Positions 48,429-51,444 of a DNA stretch of 64,000 nt are shown here, piece after piece. A program made the translations under genes and the position numbers. The notes beneath the pieces were generated by a model. The model did not search any database and was not told where the DNA came from. It saw nothing but the letters and a program-made list of their open reading frames with translations. The stretch spans positions 1 to 64,000 of the forward strand of contig CALICM010000060.1 of NCBI GenBank assembly GCA_938049225.1, given 5' to 3'. How positions within the stretch are numbered: the stretch's first letter is position 1; each line of letters starts with the position of its first letter. This DNA is from an uncultured Paracoccaceae bacterium. GTDB taxonomy: Bacteria; Pseudomonadota; Alphaproteobacteria; Rhodobacterales; Rhodobacteraceae.

Positions 48429-49211
48429 ATGGCTGAAGCCGCTTTGGTAACTGGGGCTGGGCGCCGCCTTGGGCGCGCGATGGTGTTGCGCCTGGCGCAG
48501 CGTGGGGCGGATGTCGCCATCCATTACAGTTCCAGTGCGACCGAGGCTGAGGATGTTGCAGCCCAGGCGCGCGCGATGGGTGTGCGGGCGGTCACCGTGC
48601 AGGCCGATCTAATGGACCCAACGCAGGTCGATCAACTGGTCCCACAGGCTGTAGCAGGCCTGGGCAAGCCGCTGACGGTGCTGGTCAACAACGCCTCGAC
48701 CTTTGAGCATGACACCGTACAAACCGCGACGGCAGAAAGTTGGGATCGGGCGATGGCCTCGAACCTGCGCGCGCCGATGTTCCTGATACAGGCTTTCGCA
48801 GCGCAATGCCCCACCGGCGCTGTCGATCACAATGGGGAGCCCATGGCCAGCGGCGTGATCGTGAACATGATCGACCAAAGGGTGCGCAAGCTGACGCCCG
48901 ACTTCTCAAGTTATACGGTCGCCAAGATGGGGCTTTGGGCGCTGACCCGTACAGCGGCGCGGGGCCTGGCCCCAGATATCCGCGTGAACGGCATAGGCCC
49001 GGGACCAACGATGCAAGGCGCCCGCCAAAGCCCCGAGCATTTCGCCGATCAGCGCGCCGCGACTATTTTGAACCGTGGTTCTGACCCCAATGAAATCTGC
49101 CAAGCGCTTGATTTTATTCTGGATGCAAACGGCCTAACCGGCCAACTTTTGTGCATGGATGGGGGGCAGCACCTGGCCTGGCAGACACCCGATGTTCTGG
49201 GCGTAGAGTGA
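48429..49211 (+). CDS. SDR family oxidoreductase (pteridine-reductase-like)
   Basis: This 260-residue short-chain dehydrogenase has the cofactor motif TGAGRRLG (the Arg-Arg favours NADPH), NNASTF in place of NNAG, and the catalytic YTVAK. The C-terminus closes with GQLLCMDGGQHLAW. Relatives include FolM/pteridine reductases. The start lies 9 bp after the antiporter stop. Confidence 0.88.
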   Translation: MAEAALVTGAGRRLGRAMVLRLAQRGADVAIHYSSSATEAEDVAAQARAMGVRAVTVQADLMDPTQVDQLVPQAVAGLGKPLTVLVNNASTFEHDTVQTATAESWDRAMASNLRAPMFLIQAFAAQCPTGAVDHNGEPMASGVIVNMIDQRVRKLTPDFSSYTVAKMGLWALTRTAARGLAPDIRVNGIGPGPTMQGARQSPEHFADQRAATILNRGSDPNEICQALDFILDANGLTGQLLCMDGGQHLAWQTPDVLGVE

Positions 49212-49219
49212 GGATTTGA

Positions 49220-49234
49220 TTAACAAAAAGTTAA
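49220..49234 (+). promoter_or_regulatory. Perfect CtrA box TTAA-N7-TTAA
   Basis: TTAA, seven bases (CAAAAAG), then TTAA lies 9 bp after the SDR stop. It matches the consensus for the alphaproteobacterial cell-cycle regulator CtrA. The nearest downstream gene in the reading direction is uvrC, 300 bp away. Function is inferred from the match. Confidence 0.55.
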
Positions 49235-49369
49235 GGCTCGCGCCCGCTGCTACACCAGTTTGTCCACCGCTTGGTGGGTTTCGTTAAGAATGTCATAAAT
49301 TCTTTAATGATTTCATATTCGTGCGACAATCTCATTTTTTTCCTTTTTATTTTCAAAGCTTTACATATT

Positions 49370-49386
49370 TGCCTAAATTTTAGGCA
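49370..49386. promoter_or_regulatory. 17-bp palindrome TGCCTAAA-T-TTTAGGCA
   Basis: Two exact 8-bp arms surround one central base, about 150 bp before uvrC. Such symmetry is typical of a dimeric regulator site. It matches neither the alphaproteobacterial LexA box nor FNR, and I do not know the binding protein. Confidence 0.5.
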
Positions 49387-49447
49387 GATTAATACAGGAC
49401 CTTATTTTGCGGGAGGATACGCTATGTGGGGCGGCTTATGCCCAGAC

Positions 49448-49456
49448 TTATCCACA
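49448..49456 (+). promoter_or_regulatory. Perfect DnaA box TTATCCACA
   Basis: This nonamer is identical to the high-affinity DnaA box and lies 78 bp before the uvrC ATG. A single box favours promoter regulation by DnaA rather than an origin. Confidence 0.5.
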
Positions 49457-49533
49457 GGATCCGTGGACAGCTTTAGGCTTGAAATCGCCGGTTTCAAGTT
49501 GCAGCCGTTGCAAGAATCACAGAATCGTGAGCC

Positions 49534-51444
49534 ATGACCAGCACGCCAGAGAACACCGATACCTTTGACGAGGAAGGGGCGCCGCAAACCGCCGGTATCC
49601 AGCCGCGCGGACATCAGGTCATCGCCGGTTATGTGAAACGGCTCGGCCCCGGTCCTGGGGTTTACCGCATGCTCGATGCCCAAGGCGCGGTGCTTTACGT
49701 CGGCAAGGCCCGCAAGTTGAAAAAGCGCGTGGCATCCTACGCCAAACCCACCGGGCATTCAGCGCGGATAGGACGGATGATCGCCAACACATCCTCAATG
49801 ATGTTCCTGTCGACCGAGACCGAAACCGAGGCACTGCTGCTCGAACAAAATCTAATCAAACAGCTCAAACCGCGCTACAATGTGCTGCTGCGCGACGACA
49901 AAAGCTTTCCCAATATCCTGATCCCCCGCGATCATGAGTTCCCGGCAATCCAGAAGCATCGTGGGATGAAACGGACCAAGGGCGACTATTTTGGGCCCTT
50001 TGCCAGCGCCGGCGCTGTGAACCGCACGCTGAACCAGCTGCAGAAAGCCTTCCTGCTGCGCAACTGCTCGGACTCGATGTTCGAAAGCCGCACACGCCCC
50101 TGCCTGCTGCACCAGATCAAGCGCTGTTCAGCGCCCTGCGTCGGCCGGATCTCGGCACAGGACTATGCGCAGGATTTGGGCGATGCCCGCAAGTTTCTTG
50201 AGGGACGCACGACCAAAGTGCAGGCGAAACTCGCCGAAGAGATGCAAATCGCATCCAACGCCATGGAATTCGAACGCGCGGCCGCCCTGCGTGACCGGAT
50301 CAGGGCGCTGACCCAAGTGCAATCGACCCAGGGCATCAACCCACAGTCGGTGGCCGAGGCGGATGTCATCGCGCTGCATCAGGACCAGGGCCAAGCCTGC
50401 GTCGAGGTCTTCTTCTTCCGCGCCAACCAGAACTGGGGCAACCGGGCCTATTTCCCGCGCCTCAGCGCGGGCACCGAACCGGGCGAGGTGCTGGAAGCCT
50501 TCATCGCACAGTTCTACGGCAACAAAACCCCGCCACGCCTGCTCCTCCTCAGCCATGCCGTCGACAACGCGGACTTGCTGACCGAAGCGCTGACGGCGGC
50601 TTTAGGTCGCAAGGTCGAGATCCTGGTGCCGCAGCGGGGAGAAAAGGCCACGCTGGTCGAGCATGCCGCGCGCAACGCCCGCGAGGCTTTGGCCCGCAAG
50701 ATGGCCGAGAGCGCTAGCCAGGCTCGGTTGCTCGAGGGGCTGGCCACGGCCTTCGATCTGGAGGCCCCACCGCAACGGATCGAGGTTTATGACAACTCAC
50801 ATATCCAAGGCACCAATGCCGTCGGCGGCATGATCGTCGCGGGGCCGGATGGGTTTCTGAAATCCAGCTACCGCAAGTTCAACATCAAATCCAAAGACCT
50901 GACGCCGGGCGACGACTTCGGCATGATGCGCGAGGTGCTGGAGCGCCGCTTTACCCGCCTACTGAAAGAGGATCCGGACCGCGAAACGGAAAACTGGCCC
51001 GACCTGTTGCTCATTGACGGTGGTGCGGGGCAAATCTCGGCCGTGGCCGAGGTGATGGCCGAGATGGGCGTCGAGGATATCGACGTGATCGGTGTAGCCA
51101 AAGGCGTCGACCGCGATGCGGGCAAAGAGGAATTCTATCGCCCAGGCCAACCGGTGAAAGCCCTGCCCCACCGCGACCCTGTGCTTTATTTCATCCAGCG
51201 CCTGCGCGACGAGGCGCACCGCTTTGCCATCGGCGCCCACCGCGCGAAACGGGCCAAAGCCGTGACCGCGACCCCGTTGGACGATGTCGCGGGCGTCGGC
51301 GCGGCGCGGAAACGCGCGCTGCTCGCGCACTTTGGGTCGGCCAAAGCGGTGGGGCGCGCGGGGCTGGCGGATCTAAAAGCCGTCGAGGGGATCTCGGACA
51401 CGATTGCCGAGACGATCTATGCCCATTTTAACGGGGACGGATGA
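49534..51444 (+). CDS. uvrC: Excinuclease ABC subunit C
   Basis: UvrC makes the two incisions around DNA lesions in nucleotide excision repair. The 636 residues have the GIY-YIG domain (GPGVYRML at 40-47, LYVGKAR at 54-60), a UVR motif ([19 protein letters not shown]), the RNase H-like second nuclease domain ([27 protein letters not shown]), and C-terminal helix-hairpin-helix motifs ([19 protein letters not shown]). Confidence 0.97.

Follow-up and report, generated by a model that had tools for sequence, protein, structure and literature searches.

What is the cluster of regulatory motifs that crowds the short gap before uvrC in this stretch of DNA? The window, i.e. the whole 64,000-nucleotide stretch analysed, carries there what a preliminary description read as a sign that excision repair is tied to CtrA, DnaA and CcrM, or that the site has an origin-like role. 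Read directly from the sequence, the gap measures 322 bp, from the stop of an SDR gene (49211) to the start of uvrC (49534). All motifs listed in that description were found where it had placed them, inside the gap: TTAA-N7-TTAA at 49220-49234 (its single occurrence in the 64-kb window), TTATCCACA at 49448-49456 (two occurrences in the window, 11 in the 4.0-Mb genome), the palindrome TGCCTAAA-T-TTTAGGCA at 49370-49386 and GAATC sites at 49514 and 49522. The AT-richness is borne out as well, with a G+C content of 0.425 in the gap against 0.611 in the window, and 0.298 across 49280-49420. TTAA-N7-TTAA and TTATCCACA occurred together in 31 of 20,000 random 322-bp pieces of the window, and these 31 can only be pieces covering the uvrC gap. 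A scan for promoter and terminator consensus sequences found 0 of them. Elsewhere in the window, 19894-19945 matches the Rfam family ffh sRNA (RF01793).

As the alignments described below indicate, the motif cluster is part of a deeply conserved non-coding DNA element, and this element is probably a DARS-type site, i.e. a DnaA-reactivating sequence. Its sites, their spacing, their conservation and the match in layout are read from sequence; the reactivating activity is what they would predict. Its parts and surroundings are as follows.

48429-49211, plus strand: SDR gene, the conserved upstream neighbour, missing from only one of the 30 best loci (L009-L038, own genome counted)
49260-49268, plus strand: extra DnaA-like box TTGTCCACC, 188 bp before box II
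49325-49491, plus strand: whole element, as far as the match of model R1 extends; the sequence is itself one of the 39 model rows
49351-49363, plus strand: IHF-like site TTTCAAAGCTTTA, located at -97 relative to box II and differing from WATCAANNNNTTA by one mismatch
49370-49386, no strand assigned: palindrome TGCCTAAATTTTAGGCA, 17 bp, starting 78 bp before box II
49436-49444, plus strand: DnaA box III TTATGCCCA, one mismatch to TTWTNCACA, 12 bp before box II
49448-49456, plus strand: DnaA box II TTATCCACA, perfect
49462-49470, minus strand: DnaA box I CTGTCCACG, facing box II, three mismatches with the TCCAC core kept
49514-49518, no strand assigned: GANTC site, at +66 from box II
49534-51444, plus strand: uvrC, open reading frame of 636 aa

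uvrC was matched in 57 of 60 genomes (own genome counted), and the family alignment comprises 29 of the gaps before it; L037 was dropped since the SDR gene was not found there. These 29 gaps are nearly free of indels from the DnaA-like box at -188 through the uvrC promoter region. A TTnTnCAC box without mismatches stands at -186 to -190 in 27 of them, and the outer 12 bases of the palindrome are exact in 8, with one to three mismatches in 19 more; by this outer-12-base score, L019 and L034 have no good palindrome. After the -188 box, the family gaps share a pair of GTTAC(A)AAA-like repeats with a spacing of about 11 bp (49260-49301), which are degenerate in the window itself. The conservation of the sites that had been proposed to form one circuit is divided: the DnaA box TTATCCACA is kept in 26/29 gaps and GAATC in 28/29 (64-68 bp after box II in 27, 53 bp in one), whereas the CtrA-type box TTAA-N7-TTAA is kept in 2/29. 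The CtrA part is thus not supported, and a CtrA-controlled promoter was rejected on this ground. Conserved CTTG and TTGCAGCC stretches precede the steady GAATC site in the family gaps. Together, the three are probably a uvrC promoter region with a CcrM-type site, and the GANTC site at +66 probably belongs to this putative promoter region and not to the element. An effect of CcrM on the uvrC promoter is possible because the GANTC site is steady in 28 of the 29 gaps, and a CcrM-responsive promoter is expected to keep such a site at a constant position upstream of its gene.

Twenty further uvrC upstream regions were added, of which 5 belong to the family and 15 to other families. In 8 of these 15 (L115, L116, L117, L120, L121, L124, L125 and L126), the element was clear enough to be aligned, and all 8 carry the palindrome or a worn form of it 78 or 79 bp before box II. 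The resulting alignment A1 has 39 rows taken from 49 loci (29 + 20); L034, L111, L112, L114, L118, L119, L122, L123, L127 and L128 stayed outside it, having no clear element or box start. Across the 39 rows, box II has no mismatch in 32 and one in the remaining 7, while box III has one to four. Box I is poor, with two to three mismatches in all rows and three in the window, and its core GTGGA is present in 35. The best IHF-like site of each row has at most one mismatch in 23 rows and lies at -97 to -99 in 33. The palindrome takes the form TGCCTA-N5-TAGGCA with a step of 78-79 bp to box II. In the window, 49371-49385 fits the Fis consensus GnnYAnnnnnTRnnC, as do 33 of the 39 rows without mismatch; over all rows, the offset is -77 in 31 and -78 in 8.

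As to the proteins that might read these sites, the genome encodes DnaA and three proteins of the HU/IHF family. A Fis-sized HTH_8 protein was not seen in it, the seven HTH_8 matches lying in frames of 195-482 aa. The perfect palindrome is single-copy in the genome, the next best site having two mismatches, and near sites number 10, against 10 in a reversed-pattern control. One perfect site with no excess of near sites speaks against an ordinary transcription factor with many sites.

A model, R1, was built from the A1 sequences alone and searched more widely. Within the class, it matches 274 of 385 genomes at E <= 0.01, where about 4 matches are expected by chance if the rough E-values are exact. 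Nine of the 385 had themselves supplied model rows, and 111 of them have no match. In a sample of the phylum, 227 of 299 genomes match, 198 of these outside the class, many of the matches being weak or partial. The match in G477, a genome outside the class, covers R1 positions 6-156 with an E-value of 1e-15. An exact pattern, TGCCTA-N5-TAGGCA-N60..63-TTATCCACA, searched in named genomes, occurs in at least 118 stretches, and some of the listed matches without uvrC in the stretch come from records whose titles name Nitrospira, Mariprofundus, Conchiformibius or Arenicellales. In four genomes of family f51 (G086, G210, G306 and G383), 4 to 8 element matches each were seen at E <= 0.1, several of them strong and away from uvrC.

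The element was next compared with the DnaA-regulating sites of E. coli. DARS1 is taken by us to lie between bioD and uvrB and DARS2 near mutH, and the datA stretch is where we presume datA to be; the position of the oriC stretch comes from the annotation. In DARS1, boxes III, II and the facing box I read TAATACACA, TTATCCACA and TTATCCACT, in DARS2 TTCTTCACA, CTATCCACA and TTATTCACC, and in the window TTATGCCCA, TTATCCACA and CTGTCCACG, with distances equal to those in both DARS. Thus boxes II and III of the window point in the same direction 12 bp apart, and box I stands, as far as geometry goes, head to head with box II at the DARS distance. A layout scan with the three boxes alone (box II within one mismatch) was run on 337 kb of E. 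coli, made up of the stretches that hold DARS1, DARS2, datA and oriC plus six others of 50 kb each, selected by place only. DARS1 came first with 2 mismatches in all and DARS2 second with 3. The best other sites, one in L336 and a second one in L318, have 5 mismatches, and the best scores in the datA and oriC stretches are 6 and 8. In the 64-kb window, the site before uvrC is the best with 4 mismatches and the next has 8. Among the 8 of 11 genomic TTATCCACA sites that were viewed, the window site alone combines a box III of at most one mismatch with GTGGA at box I; one other, in L002, has a box III within two mismatches.

R1 ranks the same 337 kb differently from the layout scan. DARS1 is first with 25.1 bits, while DARS2 (11.6 bits) is outscored by datA (16.8), oriC (16.8) and a site before rrsE (16.6). 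R1 alone was therefore rejected as proof of a DARS, and it is the box layout that separates these sites. In datA (model positions 70-144) and oriC (to 142), the R1 match stops before box I; in DARS1 and DARS2, it extends across this box. In the purH-rrsE region of E. coli (L337, 7742-7797), boxes TTACGCACA and TTATCCACA stand 12 bp apart before the ribosomal RNA operon rrsE, without a facing box.

Between the two DARS, the window element shares features with each. Like DARS1, it has three DnaA boxes of equal order, direction and spacing and an adjacent uvr gene; unlike it, it lies beside uvrC instead of uvrB. The stretch searched around DARS1 showed neither an IHF site of at most one mismatch nor, at the corresponding position, a site fitting the Fis consensus. 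Box I is better in E. coli, with one mismatch in both DARS against three in the window. With DARS2, it shares the same three-box core, an IHF-like site on the box III side (one mismatch at -97; one-mismatch sites at -99 and -83 in DARS2) and a Fis-consensus site on the same side as the window palindrome. It differs from DARS2 in that the window genome showed no protein of Fis size and in that its palindrome is kept more sharply than the Fis consensus. The DARS anatomy used here is drawn from passages of PMC10380432, PMC4245941, PMC4585315 and PMC8682772. According to one of these passages, boxes I and II are crucial. According to the passages on DARS2 in PMC4245941, its order is core-IHF-Fis, whereas the window has core-palindrome-IHF; DARS2 depends on IHF bound to IBS1-2 and on Fis bound to FBS2-3, and displacing these sites by 5 bp harms it. 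The one-mismatch IHF sites found in E. coli DARS2 are 3 bp apart, in agreement with IBS1/IBS2 as given there.

The genes next to the element were also recorded. Of the 34 family genomes with uvrC (own genome left out), 32 carry it upstream of this gene and in the same orientation; 30 of the 32 had supplied R1 rows, and G010 and G016 match R1 weakly. The exceptions are G019, without the element, and G031, with a match on another contig. In other alphaproteobacterial families, uvrC was found in 22 of 24 genomes and the element adjoins it in 15 of these 22 (8 had supplied R1 rows and G044 matches weakly). Four have the match elsewhere (G041, G045, G055 and G058, that in G045 being weak) and three have no R1 match (G039, G047 and G056). 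Genomes whose loci had been dropped from the alignments are included in these counts, misses and all.

Among the listed matches to the exact pattern, uvrC follows next on the same strand in 86 of the 118 stretches and was not found within the stretch in the remaining 32. At least three of these 32 (L274, L305 and L314) lie within 300 bp of the stretch end with the SDR gene behind them, so that uvrC was probably cut off. The exact pattern required only the palindrome, the 77-80 bp step and box II, and in the 32 listed sites without uvrC, boxes III (TTnTnCACA) and I (TGTGGA) nevertheless emerge in the consensus, while an IHF site was not evident in them. In 7 of the 118 listed stretches, uvrB precedes the element in the same orientation. 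In L210, L214, L227 and L315, it starts 2.2-2.4 kb before the palindrome and is therefore probably the next gene. The order uvrB-element-uvrC in these four recalls E. coli DARS1 beside uvrB. Other copies stand directly before priA, a replication-restart gene (L292, PriA domains by Pfam), before a priA-like frame (L212, by reading of the sequence), before a peptidase M20 gene (L193) and before a release factor 3 gene (L194). In L166 (G232), the SDR gene and the element are followed by a convergent gene for a pyridoxal-dependent decarboxylase, with no uvrC seen within 1.5 kb. G168 has one copy between convergent pnp and glycosyltransferase genes (L190) and a second one after uvrB, facing a 245-aa frame without Pfam match (L191). 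Copies without uvrC in view and between convergent genes mean that control of uvrC is not the general role of the element. Sitting before uvrC is a conserved trait of where the element lies and does not define what it does in general.

These neighbourhoods bear on the reading in which the boxes are the operator of a uvrC promoter controlled by DnaA and IHF, tying excision repair to the replication cycle. The 86 listed exact-pattern sites directly before uvrC on the same strand, the 32 of 34 family genomes and the conserved CTTG, TTGCAGCC and GAATC stretches downstream in the family all fit such an operator. Yet the copies in L166, L190 and, after uvrB, L191 have no uvrC near them, and the promoter-like stretches are absent from the rows of other families, where the element is present; we therefore consider this reading rather unlikely. 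A datA-like site, which would bind DnaA or, with IHF, speed ATP hydrolysis and so restrain initiation, is an unlikely explanation too. It would share DnaA boxes with IHF, the extra DnaA-like box at -188 fits it, and R1 does match the datA stretch. However, datA, which was compared by R1 and by the DARS layout, has no good facing box at the DARS distance: its best DARS-layout score is 6 against 2-3 for the two DARS, and the R1 match ends before box I. For the DARS-type reading itself, the 39-locus alignment with fixed spacing, the three-box layout shared with both DARS, the ranks in the layout scan, the wide R1 matches in the class, boxes III and I in the 32 listed sites without uvrC and the copies between convergent genes speak in favour. 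The weak box I, the ranking of datA and oriC over DARS2 by R1, the absence of a Fis-sized protein from the HTH_8 matches, the opposite order of palindrome and IHF site, the lack of an evident IHF site in those 32 listed sites and the 111 of 385 class genomes without a match speak against it.

A structured RNA or a leader peptide before uvrC is a very improbable reading. There are two inverted repeats in the gap and a possible 37-codon frame (49423-49537), with GGGAGGA before its ATG and ending in ATGA over the uvrC start. However, the start of this frame was not seen in the aligned relatives. The gap has no Rfam match at gathering score and the consensus fold reaches -0.81 kcal/mol with 0 compensatory pairs, and on these two results a structured RNA was rejected. 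A chromosome replication origin is just as improbable, in spite of the AT-rich stretch, the DnaA boxes, the IHF-like site and a weak R1 match (E 8e-4) to the likely oriC of G001, a genome of the same genus. GC skew was followed in 20 samples of 20 kb in each of three relatives. It switches at 2.69-2.85 Mb in G011 (uvrC at 1.87 Mb, parS at 2.91 Mb) and at about 1.10-1.30 Mb in G015 (uvrC at 1.61 Mb, parS at 1.18 Mb); in G005, where uvrC is at 3.07 Mb, the skew is weak and its switch falls somewhere between 3.40 Mb and, across the start of the sequence, 0.53 Mb. The switch is thus separated from uvrC by some 0.8-1.0 Mb in G011, by 0.3-0.5 Mb in G015 and by no less than about 0.3 Mb in G005. In the first two genomes, parS is close to the switch and lies 1.04 Mb (G011) and 0.42 Mb (G015) from uvrC. 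With uvrC neither at the skew minimum in these three relatives nor close to parS in these two, the chromosomal oriC was rejected, and the origin role put forward earlier finds no support; what stands of that proposal is that this control site is linked to DnaA and resembles an origin. In G001, the likely oriC is the gap from hemJ to a Kinase-PPPase gene, near parAB, gidAB, trmE and rho (names other than those assigned by Pfam were read from translations). It has DnaA boxes 12 bp apart as well, but it is at a different place and no TGCCTA palindrome was present in the gap viewed; with only DnaA boxes in common, it was discarded as a close relative of the element. In a passage of PMC6699656, closeness to parAB is one oriC criterion for 101 Rhodobacteraceae.

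DARS1 and DARS2 turn ADP-DnaA into ATP-DnaA, as worked out in E. coli, and we know of no established route by which alphaproteobacteria regain ATP-DnaA. If the element is a DARS-type site, two ADP-DnaA molecules would sit head to head on boxes I and II, which face each other, and a third DnaA would occupy box III. By analogy with published E. coli work, IHF would bend the DNA at a distance of about 100 bp, the palindrome at 78 bp may carry a dimeric protein that helps the complex to fold, and the facing DnaA pair, once in contact, would drop its ADP. The ADP-free DnaA could then rebind ATP for the next replication round.

No report of DARS in alphaproteobacteria was found in the literature searched, which covers few subscription papers, so that a report elsewhere is possible. 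The DARS passage in the review PMC6090056 concerns Vibrio. In the part of PMC4245941 that deals with it, Fis and the DARS2 core are called specific to the gammaproteobacterial relatives of E. coli, while a passage in the review PMC10380432 says that similar sequences occur in many proteobacterial species. Most likely, the element is a known kind of site, and what is new is its setting, at uvrC and in alphaproteobacteria, and its accessory layout. This suggests that the DnaA-recharging system reaches beyond the close relatives of E. coli. A wider view is conceivable, though we hold it only tentatively: DARS reactivation might be an old system of Pseudomonadota and, given the exact-pattern sites in records titled Nitrospira, of lineages beyond them, not a gammaproteobacterial speciality. 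Its full form might combine the core with an IHF site and, at a nearly fixed step, with a palindrome TGCCTA-N5-TAGGCA of its own, which another factor would recognise where Fis is absent, and its link to uvr genes might be ancient (uvrC in alphaproteobacteria, uvrB in E. coli and uvrB-element-uvrC in some lineages).

On this wider view, if true, the element would supply alphaproteobacteria with the step so far missing, the recharging of DnaA from one round of replication to the next. Being conserved and mappable, the site would make the recovery of ATP-DnaA in alphaproteobacteria testable by deletion. It also raises a sharp question, namely which protein reads a palindrome that is kept at a nearly fixed distance across the class.
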